Source of the DNA: Tessaracoccus flavus
GTDB lineage: Bacteria > Actinomycetota > Actinomycetes > Propionibacteriales > Propionibacteriaceae
Reading direction: 5' to 3'
DNA: 64,000 nt
Assembly (NCBI RefSeq): GCF_001997295.1
Contig: NZ_CP019605.1
Location: forward strand, 124,001-188,000
In this document: one piece after another, positions 7,893 to 55,784 of the stretch
Layout: each line of letters starts with the position of its first letter
Position numbering within the stretch: position 1 is the first letter of the stretch
The notes under the pieces: generated by a model
Databases searched by the model: none
What the model was told of the DNA's origin: nothing
Seen by the model: the letters and a program-made list of their open reading frames with translations, nothing else
Made by a program: the position numbers and the translations under genes

Positions 7893-9014
7893 ATGGCGAA
7901 GCGGGTTGGCATTCTGACGGCGGGCGGGGACTCGCCGGGGCTCAACGCTGCGATTCGGGGATTCGGGAAGGCTGCGATCGGGCAGCACGGGATGGAACTG
8001 ATCGGCTTCGAGCAGGGGATCCGGGGGTTGGCGGAAGACCGCTGGCGGGTGCTCGACTCCGCGGCACTCTCGGGCATCCTCACCGTCGGCGGCACGGTTC
8101 TGGGGACCTCGCGTGACAAGCCGCACCGCATGGTGATCGACGGCGAGACGGTGGACATGGTCCCGACGATCGTCGAGAACTACGAGAAGAACAAGCTCGA
8201 TGCGCTCGTCTGCATCGGAGGTGGGGGAACGGCGAAGAACGCCAACCGCCTCGCAAAGGCGGGCCTGAACGTCATCCACCTGCCCAAGACCATCGACAAC
8301 GACATCGCGCACACCGACACGAGTTTCGGGTTCTCGACGGCGCTCGGCATCGCCACCGACGCGATCGACCGGCTCCACTCGACGGCGCACTCGCACCACC
8401 GCGTCATCATCGCCGAGATCATGGGCCACAAGGCTGGTTGGCTGGCCCTCGGGTCCGGCGTCGCGGGCGGTGCCGACATCATCCTCATCCCGGAGATCCC
8501 CTACTCGATCGAGTCGGTCGCCGAGTCGGTGCACAGCCGGGCGAAGTCCGGCCGGAGCTTCTCCGTCATCGCGATCGCCGAAGGGGCGCGCGACGAACAG
8601 GACACCGCTGATCTCGCCGCAGCCGAGGCGCTCCGCAAGAGCGCCTCGGCGCCGGAGGAGAAGGCTGCCGCGACCAAGCATCGAGACTCCATTGAGGCCG
8701 CCCACCGCGACAATGCCTTCAAAGTGGCATCCGCCCTCGAGGAGGCGACGGGACTCGAGTCGCGGGTGACGATCCTCGGCTACGTGCAGCGCGGGGGCAC
8801 CCCCGACGCGCACGACCGCATGCTCGGCACCCTGCTTGGTTCGGCCGGCGCAGCGCTGGTGGCTGACAAGGAGTTCGGCATCACGGTCGCCTCGCAATCG
8901 GGCGAGGCGGTGCCAGTGCCCCTCTCCGATGTGGCGGGCAACCTCAAGACCGTGCCCGTTGACCACGCGTGGATCAAGGCGGCCCGCGCGGTTGGAACCG
9001 GCCTCGGGGACTGA
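7893..9014 (+). CDS. 6-phosphofructokinase, group III (ATP/PPi ambiguous)
   Basis: Phosphorylates fructose-6-phosphate to the 1,6-bisphosphate in glycolysis. 373 residues. GILTAGGDSPGLNAAIRG is the N-terminal nucleotide/PPi loop; LPKTIDNDI (131-138) is the catalytic loop; IAEIMGHKAGWLAL and GYVQRGGTPDAHDRM bind the sugar phosphate. The loop that is GGDGS in Escherichia coli reads GGGGT (109-113), so the usual Asp is Gly; Gly at the second selectivity site favours ATP, whereas Lys132 in PKTIDND is usual in PPi-dependent and group III enzymes. Phosphoryl donor therefore uncertain. It differs from the longer Propionibacterium freudenreichii PPi-PFK type. Single gene with GGGAG upstream of ATG. 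Confidence 0.92.
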   Translation: MAKRVGILTAGGDSPGLNAAIRGFGKAAIGQHGMELIGFEQGIRGLAEDRWRVLDSAALSGILTVGGTVLGTSRDKPHRMVIDGETVDMVPTIVENYEKNKLDALVCIGGGGTAKNANRLAKAGLNVIHLPKTIDNDIAHTDTSFGFSTALGIATDAIDRLHSTAHSHHRVIIAEIMGHKAGWLALGSGVAGGADIILIPEIPYSIESVAESVHSRAKSGRSFSVIAIAEGARDEQDTADLAAAEALRKSASAPEEKAAATKHRDSIEAAHRDNAFKVASALEEATGLESRVTILGYVQRGGTPDAHDRMLGTLLGSAGAALVADKEFGITVASQSGEAVPVPLSDVAGNLKTVPVDHAWIKAARAVGTGLGD

Positions 9015-9902
9015 CCCGCCCGTCTCCCTGACGGGCATGAGGGACGAGGGGCGACCCCTACGTCTCCCTGCGTAGCGGCTGCGAGGGACGAGCGGTGACC
9101 CCTACGTCTCCCTGAGTAGCGGCCGCGAAGGACGAGCGGTGACCCCTACGTCTCCCTGAGTAGCGGCCGCGAGGGACGAGCGGCCGTGTATCGAAGGGTC
9201 CTTGCTCGCCCCTGCTCTGAAGGGGTCAGTTTGGTGACACGCGCGACCATAGTGGTCGTACATGTCGCTGAATGGCACCTTTCGGGTAGCGGCCGCGAGG
9301 AACGAGAGGTGACCCCAAACGTCTCCCTGAGTAGCGGGTGCGAGGGACGAGCAACCGCGTATCGAAGGGCTCGTGACAATACCGCGGACCCAGGGTCAGT
9401 CCTACCTTGTGGGCTGCCCCTCGATACGGTCGCTCGTTCCTCGCTCCTACTCGGGGAGACGGGACAGACGGTCGCTCGTTCCTCGCTCCCTAAACGGGGA
9501 GACGTAATTGGGGCTGGTTGTTCGCCCGGGGAGACGGGGGAAGGTGGAGTGCGACTCGTTCGTTTCCCTGAGTAGCGGGTGCGAGGGACGAGCAACCGCG
9601 TATCAAAGGGCTCGTGACAAGACCGCGGACCCAGGGTCAGGCCTACCTTGTGGGCTGCCCCTCGATACGGTCGCTCGTCCCTCGCTCCCTACTCGGGGAG
9701 ACGGGACGGACGGGCGCTCGTTCCTCGCTCCCTACTCGGGGAGACGGGGCAGACGGGCGCTCGTCCCTCGCTCCCTACTCGGGGAGACGGGACGGACGGG
9801 CGCTCGTTCCTCGCTCCCTACTCGGGGAGACGGGACAGACGTGCGCTCGTTCCTCGCTCCCTACTCGGGGAGACGGGACAACGGGCGCTCGTTGGCCCCG
9901 GA
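9015..9902. repeat. Family B repeat block B1 with tandem 43-bp array
   Basis: An 888 bp gene-free block between converging genes. It is built of arms like CGTCTCCCTGAGTAGCGG and CGAGGGACGAGCGGCCGT ending TATCGAAGGG, and their inverse forms. A roughly 120 bp segment (9326-9450) is duplicated at 9567-9690 with few changes. From about 9667 to 9882 there are five tandem ~43 bp units of the form GCTCGTTCCTCGCTCCCTAC plus TCGGGGAGACGGGACGGAC. Element E is embedded at 9216-9286. Long open frames here are repeat translations, not genes. Confidence 0.9.
9216..9286 (-). repeat. Conserved element E, copy 1 (core)
   Basis: 71 bp core shared with 15947, 23540 and 45578. On the minus strand it reads GCGACATGTACGACCACTAT then GGTCGCGCGTGTC; CGACCA-CTA-TGGTCG is a perfect small hairpin. 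It lies inside family B block B1, downstream of both flanking genes. Function unknown. Confidence 0.75.
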
Positions 9903-12647
9903 TCAGCGGGTGGCCTGCGCGAGCAGTTCGAGGACGTGCACGTAGGGCTGTCCCGTGGCACGGCTCATCCCGAGCTCGCACGTGCGGTTGCAGGAGGCAT
10001 AGGCGGCGAACTGCCTGCTACCGATTTCCGCTGCCTGCTCGGCGGTGGCGCTGGCCGTGAGCTCGGGGTGCAACAGGCCACGGTCTCCCGCGAAACCGCA
10101 GCAGGCCCAGCTCGCGGGCACCACGACGTCGTCGGAAATGAACTCGGCGATCGCCAAGAGCGAGTCGTTGATCCCCAAGCGCGAGGAGGTGCAGGTGGGG
10201 TGCAGGGCGATGGAGTCGATGGGGGCGGTCACCGTCAGCCGTGGGAGCAGCTCCCGGGCGGCGAACACGACGACGTCCAGCACGTCGGCGTTCCAGTACT
10301 CCGCCATCTCCGTCAGGGCCGCCGTGCAACTCGACGAATCGCAGACCACCGTCATGCCCTCGCGTGAGCGAAGTTGACCGCGGACCTTTTCCCGCATGGT
10401 CTCGTAGCCGTCGACGAGGCCCTTGGACTTCCAGGGGGCACCGCAGCACAGGTCCGCCGCATCCAGCAGACGCACCGGGACGCCTGCCCGTCGGCAGAGT
10501 TCGTCGAGGGCGGAGAACACGCCCTGGCCGGGGGAGCGCAGCATGGTCTGGAGGCACGAGGGGAAGTAGGCCGCCACCCCTCCCTTTCGTCGGTCCCGCA
10601 GTTTCGGTCGACGGCGCAGGCCCGAGCCGGCGGGGAGATCGCGGTCCACCGTCGGGACGGCGTCGCTCCCGAGCGCCTTACGGCCGGCCTTCGCGACGAC
10701 GGACGCAATAGGTCCGGCGGACTTGGCGGAGGTGAGCGCCGCCGACCCCATCCGGGTGGCCAGCCCCCAGGATTTCGCAGCCTGGTTCCACGCGCGCTTC
10801 TCGACGCCGTGTGCCCGCTCCGCGCGCTGGTTGCGCACCAACTCCCCCGTGTCGATGCCGAGCGGGCAGTGCACCGCGCACATGCCGGCTGCCGTGCACG
10901 TCTCGATCGCCTCGTACTCGTAGTCGGCGGCCACCTGGGCCACGAGTTCCCGGTCGTCGCGCCTGGCGGTCAGCTCGCGCCGCAGCACGATCCGCTGCCG
11001 GGGGGTCAGCGTCAGATCCCGTGACGGGCACCCGGGCTCGCAGAAGCCGCATTCGATGCACTGGTCCACCTCGGGCTCGATAGTGGGCATGAGCTTGAGG
11101 TGCTTGAGGTGGATGTCGGGATCCTCCGAGATGATCACGCCGGGATTGAGCACCCCGGCGGGGTCGAACAGGTGCTTGATCTCGCGCATGACGTCGTACA
11201 GCTCGTCGCCGTACTGGTCGTTGACGAACGGCGCCATCGCGCGCCCGGTGCCATGCTCGGCCTTCAGGACGCCGCCGTGGCGGAGCACCTGCCGGACGAG
11301 GGCCCGCGCGAACCGGCGGTAGCGCAGGAGCCCGGCCTGCTCGTCGAACCGTTCGCTCAGAAGGAAGTGGATGTTACCGTCGCGGGCGTGGGCGAACAGG
11401 GGCACGTCGAGGATGTCGTACCCGAACTTCATGAACAGCTCGTCCAGCGTTCTGCACATGCTGGCGAACTGCTCCAGCGGCACGCAGATGTCTTCGAGCA
11501 GCGTTGTGGTCCCCGACGTGCGGGCGCCCGCCACGAGCGCGTAGAGGCCCCGGCGCAGCTCGACCAGGGCGTTTCGCTCCTGGTCCTCGGTGGTGAGCTC
11601 GACACGGTCGACCACCTCGAGCTCCCGGAGCGCCTCCTCCGCGGCAGCCACCCGGGTGGCCAGGGCGGATTCGTCGACGTCGTGCAGCTCGATCAGCAGT
11701 GCGGCCTGGGTGGTCAGTTCGGTCTCGCGCAGGAGCGCGGGGGCGGTCGGCTGGTCCCGGACCACCCTGAGGCAGGCGACGTCCATGAGCTCGATGGCCT
11801 CGAACCCGTGCTCGACCAGCCCCGGCACGGCTGAGGCGGCGTCGTCGAGCGTGGGGAAGAGCGCCAGGGCCGCCGCGCTGTGGGCGGCCAGGGGAACCGT
11901 GTGGAACGTCGCCTCCGCGACAAAGCCGAGCGTCCCCTCGCTCCCGATGAGCAGGTGCGGGATGATGTCGACCGGCCTGTGGAACTCCAGCAGCGCGTTG
12001 ATGCCGTAGCCCATGGTGTTCTTGAGCGCGAACAGCCGGTTGATGTCTGCGATGGAGGAGGGGTTGGTGCGGAGCCGCGTGCGAAGCATGTGCAGGCCAC
12101 CGACCAGCGCCGTCTCGTCCAGTCGGAGCGTCATGTCCGCCGTCGGGTCGGCGGTGTCGACGACGCGTCCGCTGGGGAGCACGAAGACCATCGAGTCCAG
12201 TGTGTGGTAGCTGTTGGACTCCACTCCGGCGAGCATGCCACTGGAGTTGTTGGCGACGATGCCGCCGATGGTGCAGGCGATCTCGCTGGTGGGGTCGGGG
12301 CCAAGGCGTCGGCCGTACGGGCGCAGCCGCGCGTTGACGGCGGCCAGCGTCGCGCCCGCCCCTGCTCGCACGCGCAAGCCCTCGTCGAGAACCTCGATGT
12401 CGCGGAAGGACCGTCGCACATCTACGAGCATCCCGTCGGTGACGGACTGCCCGCACAGGCTGGTCCCTCCGGCTCGAAACGTGATGGGCATCCGCCTCCG
12501 GCGGGCCTCGATCATGAGCTCCGCCACGTCCTCCGCAGTCTGCGGAATTGCCACCGACGACGGCGTCAGCAGGAAGTGCGACGCGTCGTGCGCGCGCGCC
12601 AACCTCGTGATTGCGCGATCGTCGCGACCGATGGTGGCACTGGTCAC
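9903..12647 (-). CDS. FAD-linked 2-hydroxyacid dehydrogenase with Fe-S (CCG) domains
   Basis: 914 residues: a GlcD/DLD-type flavoprotein fused to a GlpC/GlcF-type Fe-S subunit; likely oxidises D-lactate or glycolate and feeds electrons to the respiratory chain. FAD-binding PCMH part at about 35-210 (ITFRAGGTSLCGQSV, CTIGGIVANNSSGM), FAD-oxidase C-terminal part to about 510 (LKAEHGTGRAMAPFVNDQYG), two Fe-S clusters in CIECGFCEPGCPS and CTAAGMCAVHCPLG, then CCG-type cysteine motifs (LCCGAPWKSKG; SWACCGFAGDRG) near the C-terminus. GTG start; no good alternative. Substrate is inferred from the family; it is not next to a lactate permease. Converges on the phosphofructokinase gene across repeat block B1. 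Confidence 0.92.
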   Translation of the reverse strand: MTSATIGRDDRAITRLARAHDASHFLLTPSSVAIPQTAEDVAELMIEARRRRMPITFRAGGTSLCGQSVTDGMLVDVRRSFRDIEVLDEGLRVRAGAGATLAAVNARLRPYGRRLGPDPTSEIACTIGGIVANNSSGMLAGVESNSYHTLDSMVFVLPSGRVVDTADPTADMTLRLDETALVGGLHMLRTRLRTNPSSIADINRLFALKNTMGYGINALLEFHRPVDIIPHLLIGSEGTLGFVAEATFHTVPLAAHSAAALALFPTLDDAASAVPGLVEHGFEAIELMDVACLRVVRDQPTAPALLRETELTTQAALLIELHDVDESALATRVAAAEEALRELEVVDRVELTTEDQERNALVELRRGLYALVAGARTSGTTTLLEDICVPLEQFASMCRTLDELFMKFGYDILDVPLFAHARDGNIHFLLSERFDEQAGLLRYRRFARALVRQVLRHGGVLKAEHGTGRAMAPFVNDQYGDELYDVMREIKHLFDPAGVLNPGVIISEDPDIHLKHLKLMPTIEPEVDQCIECGFCEPGCPSRDLTLTPRQRIVLRRELTARRDDRELVAQVAADYEYEAIETCTAAGMCAVHCPLGIDTGELVRNQRAERAHGVEKRAWNQAAKSWGLATRMGSAALTSAKSAGPIASVVAKAGRKALGSDAVPTVDRDLPAGSGLRRRPKLRDRRKGGVAAYFPSCLQTMLRSPGQGVFSALDELCRRAGVPVRLLDAADLCCGAPWKSKGLVDGYETMREKVRGQLRSREGMTVVCDSSSCTAALTEMAEYWNADVLDVVVFAARELLPRLTVTAPIDSIALHPTCTSSRLGINDSLLAIAEFISDDVVVPASWACCGFAGDRGLLHPELTASATAEQAAEIGSRQFAAYASCNRTCELGMSRATGQPYVHVLELLAQATR

Positions 12648-50844: not shown

Positions 50845-50924
50845 ACCCTCTGGTTTTGCGCTCGACGATACCTCTGAGCGTGGCGCTGCGCTCAGAGCCT
50901 GCGTCGAGCGCATAACGAGAGGGT
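50845..50924. repeat. 80-bp three-step hairpin
   Basis: ACCCTCT/AGAGGGT, TGCGCTCGACG/CGTCGAGCGCA and CTCTGAGCG/CGCTCAGAG nest perfectly in one stem. No other copy seen in the window. Between the convergent DUF456 and patatin genes; could be a bidirectional terminator without a U-tract. Confidence 0.75.
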
Positions 50925-50954: not shown

Positions 50955-50992
50955 CCGTTGCCCGTCGACAAGCTCAGGGATCGAGTTGGTCG
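50955..50992. repeat. Family A repeat fragment A8 overlapping the patatin stop
   Basis: Half unit CCGTCGACAAGCTCAGGGA-type arm. The TCA that is the patatin stop codon (50974-50976) lies inside the arm, so the repeat supplies the last codons of that gene. Confidence 0.65.
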
Positions 50993-52773
50993 TCGGGGAC
51001 GAGGCGGAGCTGGGGGGTCGGTCGGGGGACCGATGTCGTCAGCACCGACGCGTCCGCCCACGCCGCGGCTAGGTCGGTCAGCTCGCCGGTGCGCTCGTTG
51101 AGATCGTCGCGCTGCTCTACGGTCAGCCGGTAGGACGGCAGGGGAGCGTCGGCGCCGGGGCCGGCGAGGTCGGGATAGGGGGTCCCGCCGGAGGTGTCGT
51201 CGTGGTAGCTGACGGACCACCGACGCAGCCACTGCGCGAGCCCGGACGTCGAGGTGCGGAACCGGATCCAGCGGTGGTTGTCCCATCCCTGGGCGGGCAC
51301 GGCGCTGGGCTGGTCGCCCGCGAACGTATCCACCAGCTTGACCGCGCCGAGCTTCCCGCGCTCCGCCAGATCCTTGACCACCTGGGCGGGCATCGACAGG
51401 TTCATGCCCCCCTCGGTTGAGTCCTGGTAGACGGTGACGATGCGGTCTCGGTACCCGGGCATCACCATCTGCGCCGCGTCCACCCAGGTGCGGGCGGTAT
51501 CCACCATCGTCATCGCGAACGCGCCCCACGCACCCAGACCCTCGGTGGGCAGATGGAACCACGGCCGCTGGATGCCTGCCGCGTTGCCGGTGGGCAGGTA
51601 GCTGTTCGCCGACTCGTCGGCGGACTTGGCCCGGCCCTTCGGGAAGTGCGCGAGGTTGAACGCGAACGTCGGGTGCCGCGGAAGCGGCGAGTCGAAGAAG
51701 TGCACGGGCAGGTTGGCGCAGAGCCCACCGTCGGTGAACCAGACGCTCGAGAAGCTCGGCGTCTCCCAGTTGTTGGGGTCGGTGTAGTCGACGGCCCACA
51801 GCCGGACGGCGGAGATCAAGCCGGGGAAGCTGAGCGACATCCGGGTGGCGACGATCACCGGCAGGTCGTCGGCGGCGGGCCAGGGATGCAGGTGGCCGTG
51901 GGGTTCGGCGTCGGGCTGCGGCGGGTGGTCGACCATCCACTGCACGACGTCGTCGGGGAACAGCCGGCGCATGTCGTCGGGATCGAAGTAGTACTCGCCG
52001 GTGCTCCACGGCATCGCCATCGGCTGGTGGCGGGAGAGGTTGGTGGTCATCACGCGCAGGGTCACGCCGCCGCGGCGGAGGTCGCCGAATGTGAGCGGCG
52101 GCCCGTCGCGACGCCCGGCGAGCGACTGAATCTTCGCGTGCAGCCACGGCGTGAGCGGGGTGGCCCCGTGGGCTCCGACGCCCTCCATGCCGGTGCACAT
52201 GCCGAAGTTGTCGTCGGCCACCTTCGCGAAGGTGCGCAGCGCCCCGGCAGCGACCGCCACCGCGACACCGAGCAGCAGCGCGATGAGCCCTCCGACGACG
52301 CCCGCTCCGGCGGCGACCCCCTCGCCGAGCGCGCTGAGAACGATGATGATCAGGCCCGGGACGGCGCCGAGCAGCGCCCCCTTCCAGAAGCTCCGCAGCA
52401 GCCCGCCGATCAGCGCCGCGATCTTGTTGTCCGCCGCCGCCATGGAGAACATGAGGCGAAACAGCGGCGCGGCGGTGCGGGTGGGCTGGAAGAAGGAGGA
52501 CAGCGTCGAGTGGCCGTCGGGGCCGACGGCGGCGAGCGCGTCGGGCATCGCGTCGAGCTCGGCGAAGGCGCCGGCGTCGCGGCCCAGCTCCGCGGCGGCG
52601 GCCGCGGCGGCGGCGATGGCCCCCGCGGACGCCCCGCCCACCTGGCTGAGCCGGTAGGTCTTCGCTAGCTCGGCGACCGCACGCGGGTAGATCACGCCGC
52701 TGGTGATTCCGCCCTTCATGACGATGTCGCAGCGCAGGGTGGGGTTGGCGTACGGGTCTGGGTCGATGGTCAT
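50974..52773 (-). CDS. Patatin-like phospholipase with internal membrane segment
   Basis: 599 residues. Patatin fold: glycine-rich GGITSGVIYPRAV (21-33), nucleophile elbow GGASAGA with Ser49, and the catalytic Asp348 in WFTDGGLCANLP (DGG). Between them (about 119-182) lie two to three hydrophobic segments (GALLGAVPGLIIIVLSALGE; VVGGLIALLLGVAVAVAAGA), an unusual insertion that should hold it in the membrane. Starts ATGA-overlapping the HNH gene, with GGAGG upstream inside that gene. Third gene of the HNH-ATPase/HNH/patatin operon, where it is the best candidate for a membrane-damaging effector. Stop codon lies in a family A arm. Confidence 0.85.
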   Translation of the reverse strand: MTIDPDPYANPTLRCDIVMKGGITSGVIYPRAVAELAKTYRLSQVGGASAGAIAAAAAAAAELGRDAGAFAELDAMPDALAAVGPDGHSTLSSFFQPTRTAAPLFRLMFSMAAADNKIAALIGGLLRSFWKGALLGAVPGLIIIVLSALGEGVAAGAGVVGGLIALLLGVAVAVAAGALRTFAKVADDNFGMCTGMEGVGAHGATPLTPWLHAKIQSLAGRRDGPPLTFGDLRRGGVTLRVMTTNLSRHQPMAMPWSTGEYYFDPDDMRRLFPDDVVQWMVDHPPQPDAEPHGHLHPWPAADDLPVIVATRMSLSFPGLISAVRLWAVDYTDPNNWETPSFSSVWFTDGGLCANLPVHFFDSPLPRHPTFAFNLAHFPKGRAKSADESANSYLPTGNAAGIQRPWFHLPTEGLGAWGAFAMTMVDTARTWVDAAQMVMPGYRDRIVTVYQDSTEGGMNLSMPAQVVKDLAERGKLGAVKLVDTFAGDQPSAVPAQGWDNHRWIRFRTSTSGLAQWLRRWSVSYHDDTSGGTPYPDLAGPGADAPLPSYRLTVEQRDDLNERTGELTDLAAAWADASVLTTSVPRPTPQLRLVPDDQLDP

Positions 52774-53621
52774 GATGGTCCTCCGAACAGTTTCTGGCGG
52801 TAGGCGGCCACCACCTGGCGGCACATCGCGGAGTATGGGGCGTGGTCGGCGACGAAGCGACTCACCTCGGCGAGGCGCCGTTCCAGTTGGGTCAGGAGTT
52901 CCGGATCGTCGGGCCGTCGCACGACGTTGGACTGCGCCTCGGCCACCGACTCCAAGTGCGCGATGAGGTCGAGCAGCCGGTCGCGCCGGGCGGCGCGCAG
53001 CCCACGGCGCTGGAGTGCGCAGACCTCGATGGTCGCCGCCCCCTTCCGGCTGCCGCGCAGGGGCCGGACCCACCCGTCGTCGACGGTGCCGGTGCCCCAG
53101 ACGAATTCGAGGTGCTTCTCCGGGTAGTCGAGGTAGGGGTGGAGGAGCAGCCTTTTCTCGGTGCGTTCCGACCCCGGCGTCGTGGCCCGCGTCGACTCCG
53201 ACGCCAGCGGGAACGCGTTGGCCTTCCCCGCCGTCACCGTCTTGGGCTGGTTGGGGAGGTCCTGGCCGCGCGGGCTGTTGCAGTCGGTGCAGGACGGCAG
53301 CAGGTTGGTCCACTCGCTCGCGAGCCAGTAGTAGCCGGGCGGCACGCGCTTGCGTCCGATCTTCACCTCGCCCTTGGGTCGGTAGTGCTCGATCGCCACG
53401 GGTTGGGTGGCGGCGTAGCTCGTCTCGCAGTACGCGCACTTCCCGCCGAACGCCTCCTCGAGCGCCGCGCGGACGTCCGGGTTCTTATAGGCCTTGAAGC
53501 CGTCGTACTTGGCCGACCCGTCCCAGGCCGCGTAAAAGTCCAGCGCGGCCTGCCGCTCGTCGAGCGTCTTCACGTCCGACAGGCTCGCCGGCTCCTTGGG
53601 CTTGCGGACCCGTCGCATCAT
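52770..53621 (-). CDS. HNH endonuclease (PtuB/TIGR02646-like)
   Basis: 283 residues. Zinc-binding CxxC at 62-65 (KCAYCETSY), the catalytic EHYRPKGE at 78-85, then WLASEWTNLLPSCTDCNSPRG with a second CxxC at 111-114 and Asn115: a complete HNH site of the type found in PtuB and retron-associated HNH proteins. The helical C-terminal half (about 195-275) has no known domain. Start at ATG overlapping the stop of the ATPase gene (ATGATG); it ends ATGA-overlapping the patatin gene, so all three genes are translationally coupled. Confidence 0.85.
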   Translation of the reverse strand: MMRRVRKPKEPASLSDVKTLDERQAALDFYAAWDGSAKYDGFKAYKNPDVRAALEEAFGGKCAYCETSYAATQPVAIEHYRPKGEVKIGRKRVPPGYYWLASEWTNLLPSCTDCNSPRGQDLPNQPKTVTAGKANAFPLASESTRATTPGSERTEKRLLLHPYLDYPEKHLEFVWGTGTVDDGWVRPLRGSRKGAATIEVCALQRRGLRAARRDRLLDLIAHLESVAEAQSNVVRRPDDPELLTQLERRLAEVSRFVADHAPYSAMCRQVVAAYRQKLFGGPS

Positions 53622-55594
53622 CGTGCCTCCGGTAGGTACTTGCCCCACAGGTCGGCCAGCTTCGCGGTGATCTCCGCGCCGCTCGGTGCCACGGCGTCGC
53701 CCGTCTCCCGACGCTGCGCGATGTAGTCGGCCGCCGACGTCAGCAGCAGCCGCTCCCGCTCGGTGGTGCCGAACTGCTCCAGCTCGTCGAGCCTGGCGCG
53801 CACGTGGTCCAGCCGCTTCTTCTGCTCCGCGGTAGGGCGGGTGAGCGCCATCAGCCGGTAGTAGCTCTCCCACAGCTCCGCGACCTCCGGGTCGTCGGTG
53901 GAGCCCAGCCCGAAGTGCTCCGACGTCAGCAGCTGATCGATCCGCATCCCGGTCACCGGCGGCAGGTCGGTCAGCGCGACGATGTCGCCCTCGCTGTTGC
54001 GCCTGACGACGACCACCTCGCCGTCGACGATGCCGCGCAGGCACAGCGGGTCGTGGGTGGTAACGACGAACTGGATGCGTGGCATGAGGTTGCGCAGCGC
54101 CGTGACGATGCGCAGCCGCCAGCGCGGATGCAGGTGGGCGCCGATCTCGTCGATAAGGACGATGCCCTCCGCGAGCGCGGGTCGGCCCCAGAGCCGCATC
54201 GTGGTGCGGAGGACGTCGGAGGCCATGACGATCATCGACTGGTAGCCGTCGCTCAGCGTCACGATGTCGGAGCGCGACCGACCCTGGCGCAGCGTCACCC
54301 TCGTGCGGCTGCGGCTGAGCTCGGAATCGGCGTCGAGGGCGAGCATCTCGTGGATGCCGGTGGCGACGTCGTCGAACGTGTCGTCGTCGAGGGAGAGCAG
54401 CCAGTCGGTCGGGTCGGTGAGTGGGGCGACGGGGTCGAAGAGGTTGTCGACCCGCACCACGCGATCGTCGCTCGCGGGCGACGGCGTGCGCGGCAGCAGC
54501 CGCGTGGCGCCGTAGCCGAGCAGCAGCGCGGCGACGGGCTCCGGGCCGGTGAAGTCCTTCTCCCCGTGGGCCCACTCCAGCCGGAGCGGCTCCTGCCTCC
54601 CGGAGAGGTAGACCTCGACCAGCCCCTTGCGCGCGCCGTCGCGGAGGAACCGGCGCGCGTCGATGCCGAGCTGGCGGCGCTGCTCGCCGCCCATGAGCGT
54701 GAGCGCGATCGCGTGCAGCACCGAGCTCTTGCCGCAGCCGTTCTCGCCGAGCAGGACCGTCCAGGGGCCGCGCTCGCTGGTGGAGCGGGCCAGATCGATT
54801 TCCAGCTCCCGGATGGGCCGGAAGTTGCGGATGACGACGCGCTCGATCCACTGCGTGGCGTGGTAGTAGTTGGCCTGGCCGAGCTCGATCCCCGCGGTCA
54901 TCGGAAGTTCGGGGCCCGACGGCCGGGCTGCGGCCTCGGGGACTCTGCCACCCGCCTGCGGGGTGGCGGTGTGGCCGAGTTGTCGCCGGAGGGCCGGGAA
55001 CTCCTCGGGCGCGGCCACGCCGTCGAGCGCGGCGAGCCGGGACTTGACGAGGAAGTCGCGGTTGAGCGCCAGCACGTCGAGCGTCGCCCGCCCGCGCTCG
55101 GTCAGGGCCGTGACGGTGCCGTCGGGAAGGTAGCGGAGGTGCTCGTCCGGGTCGTCGACGGCGGGGTCGAGCAGCAGCGGCTCCTCCGCCGCGAGGTCGT
55201 CGCCCTGCGCGGCGCGCTGCCCGCGGACGGGGAACCGGGTGCCGCGAGCCCGGACGCAGTCGGCGCAGGCCGGGTAGAGGTTGGTCCATTCGTAGGTGAG
55301 CCACCAGTAGGACTGGAGGTCGACGTCGCCCTCGGACCCGACCGCACCCCACGTCGGCCGGTGGTGGGCGACGACGGCGCCGTCGGGTCCCTGGAACTCG
55401 AGCGCGCGCTCGCAGTAGGCGCACGTGCCGTCGGTCATCTCGAGCAGGGCCCGGACAACCTCGGGCGCGTGGAGCACGGCGTCGAGCTCCGGGCCGCGGC
55501 TGCGCTTCTGCTGCCAGGCGCGGGCCAGGTCGTCGGTGAGACGCTCGCGGGAGCGCGCGAGGACGTCGGGTTCTGCGGGTCGTGGAAGCCTCAT
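53618..55594 (-). CDS. HNH-like domain fused to AAA/ABC-type ATPase (PtuA/OLD-like)
   Basis: 658 residues. N-terminal zinc-ribbon HNH-like domain (about 55-125): CAYC at 58-61, AHHRP at 76-80, ACADC at 110-113, homologous to the next gene's nuclease but with Ala76 instead of Glu and Val114 instead of Asn, so probably inactive. From about 245 an SMC/ABC-type ATPase: FRPIRELEIDL, Walker A LLGENGCGKSS (282-291), LSDGYQSM (447-454), Walker B IVLIDEIGAH (478-487), H-loop VTTHD (511-515). AAGGGGG precedes ATG. First gene of the operon; ATPase plus HNH resembles Septu (PtuA/PtuB). Confidence 0.85.
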   Translation of the reverse strand: MRLPRPAEPDVLARSRERLTDDLARAWQQKRSRGPELDAVLHAPEVVRALLEMTDGTCAYCERALEFQGPDGAVVAHHRPTWGAVGSEGDVDLQSYWWLTYEWTNLYPACADCVRARGTRFPVRGQRAAQGDDLAAEEPLLLDPAVDDPDEHLRYLPDGTVTALTERGRATLDVLALNRDFLVKSRLAALDGVAAPEEFPALRRQLGHTATPQAGGRVPEAAARPSGPELPMTAGIELGQANYYHATQWIERVVIRNFRPIRELEIDLARSTSERGPWTVLLGENGCGKSSVLHAIALTLMGGEQRRQLGIDARRFLRDGARKGLVEVYLSGRQEPLRLEWAHGEKDFTGPEPVAALLLGYGATRLLPRTPSPASDDRVVRVDNLFDPVAPLTDPTDWLLSLDDDTFDDVATGIHEMLALDADSELSRSRTRVTLRQGRSRSDIVTLSDGYQSMIVMASDVLRTTMRLWGRPALAEGIVLIDEIGAHLHPRWRLRIVTALRNLMPRIQFVVTTHDPLCLRGIVDGEVVVVRRNSEGDIVALTDLPPVTGMRIDQLLTSEHFGLGSTDDPEVAELWESYYRLMALTRPTAEQKKRLDHVRARLDELEQFGTTERERLLLTSAADYIAQRRETGDAVAPSGAEITAKLADLWGKYLPEAR

Positions 55595-55660
55595 GGGGCA
55601 CCCCCTTGGGGCGATTATTCCCCTATCTGCGCTGTAATCCAGTGCGATTGGGCAGACTGA

Positions 55661-55696
55661 TGCCACTTTTGTCCCGTCTATGGGACAGAAGTGGCA
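55661..55696. promoter_or_regulatory. 36-bp inverted repeat between divergent genes
   Basis: TGCCACTTTTGTCCC and GGGACAGAAGTGGCA (one mismatch) flank a 6-bp centre GTCTAT, 67 bp before the ATPase start and 89 bp before the DUF4349 start. Probable operator for one or both divergent units. Confidence 0.6.
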
Positions 55697-55784
55697 AGGG
55701 TCTCCGCCGATTGAGTACCACGCCAGGAGTAGCCTGGTGGGTGCGGACCGTCGCACGCGGCCCCACATCCTGCGAGGAGGCACG

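Follow-up and report, generated by a model that had tools for sequence, protein, structure and literature searches.

The stretch of the Tessaracoccus flavus chromosome analyzed here (64,000 nucleotides, hereafter the window) carries three overlapping genes on the minus strand, encoding a PtuA-like ATPase, a PtuB-like HNH nuclease and a patatin-like phospholipase. A first reading of the sequence alone (the sequence-only reading) had proposed them as a candidate defense operon. With moderate confidence, we regard the operon as a three-gene variant of the anti-phage system Septu, in which PtuB would cut nucleic acid and the patatin would attack the membrane. The features are as follows, with the basis of each in brackets.

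53618..55594, minus strand: ptuA-like gene (gene 1), an ABC/OLD-type ATPase carrying a fused, degenerate HNH domain (PADLOC PtuA1, Foldseek)
55025..55594, minus strand: N-terminal HNH-like domain of gene 1, residues 1-190 (BLASTP against gene 2, residue counts)
54722..54748, minus strand: Walker A motif GENGCGKSS of gene 1, residues 283-291 (sequence motif)
52770..53621, minus strand: ptuB-like gene (gene 2), a stand-alone HNH nuclease with E78-H79, N106 and CTDCN intact (PADLOC PtuB1, motif table)
50974..52773, minus strand: patatin-like phospholipase gene (gene 3), with Ser49 in GASAG and Asp348 in DGG (Pfam PF01734, alignment, Foldseek)
52213..52386, minus strand: predicted membrane hairpin in the patatin, residues 130-187 (AlphaFold helices, hydropathy)
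53618..53621, minus strand: ATGA stop/start overlap of ptuA and ptuB (gene 1 TGA at 53620-53618, gene 2 ATG from 53621)
52770..52773, minus strand: ATGA stop/start overlap of ptuB and the patatin gene (gene 2 end at 52770, gene 3 ATG from 52773)

Translation gave three complete open reading frames (ORFs) of 658 amino acids (aa; gene 1, 55594-53618), 283 aa (gene 2, 53621-52770) and 599 aa (gene 3, 52773-50974), and both ATGA overlaps described by the sequence-only reading are real. GGAGG stands just 5' of the start codons of genes 2 and 3. The GC content of the operon (0.69-0.72) is the same as that of its surroundings in the 3.22 Mb, single-contig host genome, and the closest named matches of its proteins come from Tessaracoccus and Arachnia (Propionibacteriaceae).

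Gene 1 matches the PADLOC model PtuA1 (PDLC00292) at E 4e-195 and has an intact P-loop, with GENGCGKSS as Walker A and IVLIDEIGAHL as Walker B. When its AlphaFold model (mean predicted local distance difference test score, pLDDT, 72.7) was searched with Foldseek, the top matches were PtuA chains from complexes of Septu and retron I-A, the best being 9nnb (E 8.9e-16), with 8eea from E. coli Septu at E 3.7e-15. Against the NCBIfam model for retron Ec78 PtuA it scored 110 bits (cut-off 500). The N-terminal domain aligns with gene 2 over 183 columns at 33% identity (BLASTP, E 3e-20), and the description of gene 1 as a PtuA-like ATPase with an N-terminal HNH-like domain is thus confirmed.

This fused domain appears to have retained the HNH fold and mostly lost its active site. 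In the window, the zinc cysteines C58, C61, C110 and C113 are kept along with H77 and N105, and the acid before H77 is replaced by alanine (A76). The acid preceding the histidine is a metal ligand in HNH nucleases generally. Across 24 triads (loci with ptuA, ptuB and a patatin gene together) the acid-His pair is intact in only three (locus L013, and genomes G488 and G428, seen in loci L117 and L118); the acid is gone in nine, the window with its A76-H77 among them, and the histidine in twelve, the entry for locus L026 having been assigned by hand because a contig gap splits off its domain. Among 121 aligned gene 1 homologues (the query and 120 listed of 753 found), the pair is present in 23 and accompanied by the final Asn in four, the zinc cysteines are each conserved in 120 or 121, and N105 is without exception conserved. 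This final Asn after CxxC was rejected as a catalytic mark: it is absent from Ec78 PtuB, and we therefore judged the fused domain by the acid-His pair. The domain encoded in the window is probably not a working nuclease, a statement we qualify since the His and Asn are kept and only the acid is missing. The finding of a mostly degenerate fused HNH domain beside an intact PtuB is new here. The most decayed fused domains seen, those of the L037 and L026 triads, lack zinc cysteines in addition to the active site. A separate, split pseudo-HNH gene in L026 was discarded as an interpretation, a run of N in the contig lying between the HNH part and the ATPase.

Gene 2, as the sequence-only reading had it, is a stand-alone HNH nuclease: it matches the PADLOC model PtuB1 (PDLC00328, E 3.5e-70) and keeps E78-H79, N106 and CTDCN, and the corresponding motifs [DE]-H, W-x-N and CxxCN are kept in all 24 triad PtuBs. 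In Septu EcB88, PtuB H75 and N91 and the Walker residues of PtuA are essential (PMC13096335); on Ec78 PtuB, two residues with the same 16-residue spacing are the His in I-E-H-F-R-P and the Asn in W-N-N-L, which would be the equivalent residues. Scores against the NCBIfam retron Ec78 PtuB model (58 bits, cut-off 150) and TIGR02646 (46.7 bits, cut-off 52.15) were lower than the cut-offs. The 726-position PADLOC PtuA model PDLC00292 likewise aligns with gene 2, over model positions 1-244; the PADLOC PtuA family therefore already includes the fused HNH-ATPase form.

Pfam identifies gene 3 as a Patatin (PF01734, E 1.3e-10), whereas PADLOC and NCBIfam gave no match at E<=1 and PHROG none at 0.001. 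The protein has at least 5716 relatives at E<=0.001 among 8000 scored. Ser49 (GASAG) and Asp348 (DGG) are invariant in 18 aligned patatins, GxSxG and DG[GA] are found in all 24 triad patatins, and among 91 patatins the former is present in 90 and the latter in 91. Two loop segments common to most of 17 aligned relatives are missing from the window protein. Hydropathy marks two hydrophobic segments (residues 132-150 and 162-180), and the AlphaFold model (mean pLDDT 81.1) has a helical hairpin at 130-148/153-187; Foldseek matched this model, at low TM-scores, to the patatin-fold phospholipases VipD, ExoU, CapV (8zr9, E 1.9e-4) and PlpD. The protein thus has the GxSxG serine and DG[GA] aspartate of a patatin in a patatin fold, and the earlier assignment as a patatin with internal membrane helices stands.

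The three genes are linked beyond chance: of 80 patatin loci, 13 also carry adjacent genes for HNH-PtuA and PtuB (L002-L005, L010, L013, L026, L037, L038, L049, L061, L064 and L072), and HNH-PtuA occurs in only 3 of the 394 genomes of a class sample at E<=1e-30. These 80 loci are the best by similarity to the window patatin, of at least 235 confirmed relatives in named genomes, and are not a random sample. The linked loci belong to Propionibacteriaceae, Occultella (Ruaniaceae), metagenome-assembled genomes of Thermoleophilia and Acidimicrobiia, Nocardioides astragali, and the alphaproteobacteria Tabrizicola, Ensifer, Kaistia and Rhizobium. In most triads the patatin gene comes last; it comes first in L026 and L037. 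Distances in the PtuA and patatin trees correlated across 24 triads (r 0.90, 0/5000 permutations), and likewise within the 15 actinobacterial (r 0.70, 8/5000) and the nine alphaproteobacterial triads (r 0.95, 1/5000), which points to joint inheritance of PtuA and patatin in related genomes. A quick tree was built of 91 patatins, those of the window, of the 80 scan loci and of ten triads added non-randomly through the PtuA and plasmid searches. Triad status switches 11 times on it, ten of these forced by starred branches; gains and losses are not distinguished in this count. The patatin has probably joined the pair more than once.

These data bear on the explanation that a plain Septu pair and a patatin are merely neighbors on the same transcript, the patatin having a separate job in lipid housekeeping or defense. 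The pair and the patatin can indeed each be found without the other. However, the linkage extends across two phyla and two gene orders with concordant trees, and the ATGA overlap also speaks against it; we consider independent neighbors fairly unlikely.

To describe the distribution of the operon, we used genome samples whose counts are lower bounds, as few candidates were scored per genome and weak members may be missed. At E<=1e-30, the class sample contained the patatin in 14 genomes. The family sample contained HNH-PtuA in 13 of 197 genomes, with the patatin after ptuB in 12 of the 13. In the order to which the Kaistia genome belongs, HNH-PtuA was found in 3 of 297 genomes (E<=1e-40), namely Kaistia with the patatin and two genomes without, and in the phylum sample in 1 of 396, the window's own. 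Within the genus the operon is patchy (10 of 39 genomes). A plasmid search with gene 1 gave 32 matching records (E<=1e-30), and ten of them have a patatin about 1 kb downstream of ptuA. The ten include near-copies, namely two records from R. beringeri, three from R. indicum/leguminosarum and two from Paracoccus. A search of 50,697 phage records, limited to E<=1e-10, found no match to the patatin; viral contigs yielded one distant PtuA locus and two distant patatin loci. The sequence-only reading had asked for co-occurrence of the three proteins and named, as evidence against itself, homologs that are usually not adjacent. This describes the patatin side (13/80), and the picture from the PtuA side is mixed (12/13 in the family, 10/32 on plasmids).

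Three plasmid triads lie beside other defense genes. PADLOC was run on ten chosen plasmid neighbors, of which eight matched: in the triad on a Rhizobium CB3060 plasmid, GajA/GajB (Gabija) directly follow the patatin; a R. beringeri triad adjoins IetA/IetS; and a R. etli NXC12 triad adjoins a type II methyltransferase. A patatin-less pair on R. leguminosarum pRlvC is also found beside GajA/GajB, together with a reverse transcriptase of retron III-A type.

The surroundings in the window are of another kind. The seven neighbors scanned are a DUF456 protein, a DUF4349 protein, a member of the exonuclease/endonuclease/phosphatase family, a protein kinase, a polysaccharide deacetylase, a CBS protein and a LacI regulator, with the DUF456 and DUF4349 genes directly flanking the operon. 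Only the kinase matched PADLOC, through kinase models such as PD-T4-6, a match that we read as generic. In the 39 genus genomes the two flanking genes have matches in 24 and 19, and where both were found they are not side by side outside the window, so that no clean empty site pointing to mobility was seen.

Several observations weigh against a defense system built of all three genes. The seven scanned neighbors are household-like and form no defense island, and the annotated neighbors of two plasmid triads, L130 (Paracoccus) and L175 (R. leguminosarum A1), are, by annotation only, mostly household-looking as well. Of the nine other carriers in the genus, six (G515, G520, G530, G534, G561 and G565) have the DUF4349 gene and the operon on one contig at a distance of 9-150 kb (about 1.5 Mb in G475), and the history of the operon is therefore partly vertical. 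The patatin family is mostly solitary: HNH-PtuA is absent beside the patatin in 67 of the 80 loci, among which L007, L024 and L031 have fewer than 700 bases upstream, too short to tell, and L020, L034, L045 and L054 have about 600 bases or fewer downstream. Eighteen hand-chosen ORFs upstream of solitary patatins were of household type and mutually unlike, and a housekeeping lipid role of the family is therefore possible. Adjacency in the class sample is limited to two genomes, the window's own and G360, and G136 has PtuA without the patatin. In the PtuA tree G577 falls within the clade of Tessaracoccus triads; it has no patatin within 16 kb and has probably lost it. Lastly, PtuA-PtuB pairs without a patatin look complete in all eight newly inspected plasmid loci, and L133, L134, L145, L146 and L148 are also such pairs (L147 has a partial PtuB match only).

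A shared partner of the solitary patatins was considered and rejected, the only kin among the 18 upstream ORFs being L051, L079 and, distantly, L055. In L175, which comes from plasmid CP049734, ptuA is annotated in two pieces and ptuA and ptuB each match in two frames (8001-11106 of the locus); this copy of the triad may be decaying.

Part of this evidence would suit a chromosomal module for nucleic-acid or lipid stress with no role against phages, for example a RecF/OLD-like repair protein with a lipase. The operon is chromosomal, household genes surround it in the window and its position within the genus is partly stable. Such a module is nevertheless very unlikely, given that gene 1 resembles PtuA proteins studied by experiment in both sequence and structure, and given the patchy presence and the three plasmid copies beside other defense genes.

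We also looked at how firmly the patatin belongs to the pair. Among the 22 plasmid records without a patatin, ten were inspected; PtuB follows in each, with no patatin within the stretch fetched. The annotated ATPase starts with an HNH-like domain in six of the eight newly inspected loci and lacks it in L172 and L174, so not all 32 plasmid records are of the fused form. Since pairs without a patatin were found on inspection, PtuA and PtuB form an independent unit, to which the patatin was joined as an accessory. Beside the patatin-less pair of L133 lies a 396-aa protein with a hydrophobic stretch (11085-12275), and in L145 a short ORF, PIN-like by eye, stands just after ptuB; either is perhaps another third partner.

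The patatin might serve as a membrane tether and trigger, its hairpin keeping PtuAB inhibited at the inner membrane. PtuB would be freed once an entering phage or its lysis proteins disturb the lipid or membrane, and the patatin would be comparable to reverse transcriptase and multicopy single-stranded DNA (msDNA) in retron-Septu. A third component of retron-Septu can keep PtuAB inactive until infection, as msDNA does in Ec83 (PMC12948488). Co-inheritance of PtuA and patatin suggests contact, and at least one hydrophobic segment of the insert is present in 24 of 24 triad patatins. However, the segment is equally present in 67 of 67 solitary patatins and therefore did not evolve for PtuAB; Ser-Asp motifs that a pure tether would not need are intact in every triad, and patatin-less pairs exist. 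We regard a tether as unlikely. Quite unlikely, in our view, is a Septu under membrane control in which the patatin, both lipase and sensor, takes the place of reverse transcriptase and msDNA, with PtuAB, which has a degenerate HNH within PtuA and a live one in PtuB, armed at the membrane and freed on phage disturbance; if true, it would make the operon a dual abortive system acting on membrane and nucleic acid.

Overall, family matches, conserved linkage, patchiness and the three plasmid copies beside defense genes give good support to a Septu-type defense operon with a patatin. The proposal of a candidate defense operon is thus largely right. The operon is very probably a defense system of the Septu family. 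Abortive infection and the role of the patatin are what we infer beyond this: given a Septu-family defense, the patatin is probably a membrane effector, because of the linkage, the intact Ser-Asp dyad and the hairpin. This step is the weakest, as the solitary relatives show that the enzyme also exists independently.

In the three-gene Septu variant that we favor, PtuA would assemble and hold PtuB, and infection would release or activate PtuB to cut DNA or tRNA, as suggested by the Septu and retron-Septu systems studied so far. Of these, PtuAB of retron-Eco7 depletes tRNA-Tyr (PMC11555353), Septu EcB88 cuts tRNA-Tyr (PMC13096335), and action on DNA has been reported for other PtuABs, among them a further Septu pair (PMC11555353). 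In PtuA, the degenerate HNH domain may pair with PtuB in a structural role, replacing a second HNH intramolecularly, and would not itself cut. The patatin would be a second effector under the same trigger, hydrolyzing inner-membrane phospholipid, and the membrane damage could stop the infected cell ahead of phage release.

Two palindromes lie beside the operon. Between ptuA and the divergent DUF4349 gene, an inverted repeat at 55654-55703 has 22-nt arms (55654-55675/55682-55703) that match at 82%. It was rejected as a conserved operator, its core pattern occurring once in the genome and, among 154 loci, in the window's copy (L102) only. Just 3' of the patatin gene, a long palindrome at 50845-50924 has 36-nt arms, 83% complementary, around an 8-nt loop; with relatives at about 14 genome sites (25 matches, both strands), it belongs to a repeat family resembling repetitive extragenic palindromes or miniature inverted-repeat transposable elements.

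Compared with known systems, the operon shares with Septu type I a PtuA ATPase followed by a PtuB HNH nuclease, both matching PADLOC models. It differs in that Septu type I has two genes and the operon has a third, overlapping one for the patatin, and in that the solved Septu PtuA chain (8ee4) has 465 aa, whereas the PtuA here is 658 aa long and includes a degenerate HNH domain by fusion. The claim that no named system combines the trio therefore holds for the patatin, which has no PADLOC or NCBIfam model, and not for genes 1 and 2, which PADLOC already catalogs as Septu PtuA/PtuB, fused form included. Since it departs from the two-gene definition, we file the operon as a three-gene Septu variant. 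We found no report of a system that combines a patatin with PtuA or Septu, subscription papers, preprints and DefenseFinder lying outside the search, and the excerpts of PMC12419801, PMC8777954, PMC10013915, PMC12948488 and PMC12657218 do not describe the combination.

With CBASS (cyclic-oligonucleotide-based antiphage signaling system) operons that carry CapV, the operon has in common a patatin phospholipase within a defense operon, and CapV is among the fold matches. Unlike CapV, the patatin here has 599 aa with a membrane hairpin and no PADLOC model at E<=1, and no cyclase (CD-NTase, cGAS/DncV-like nucleotidyltransferase) was found among the three genes and the seven neighbors scanned.

Septu type II / retron I-A of PADLOC (Ec78, also called Eco7, and Ec83) has in common with the operon a PtuAB core with a third partner gene. 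In Septu type II, as the PADLOC paper describes it, a reverse transcriptase stands in front of ptuAB (PMC8565338); here the third partner is a patatin. The seven scanned neighbors included no reverse transcriptase (msDNA was not sought). The operon suggests a third-gene rule absent from the PADLOC version used. With a nuclease and a membrane enzyme in one operon, it would offer a direct test of whether one PtuA trigger drives two unrelated effectors, and its pair of live and degenerate HNH domains a simple handle on the PtuA-PtuB fit. PtuAB appears to be a modular defense core, occurring alone in Septu, with a reverse transcriptase in retron I-A and here with a lipase.

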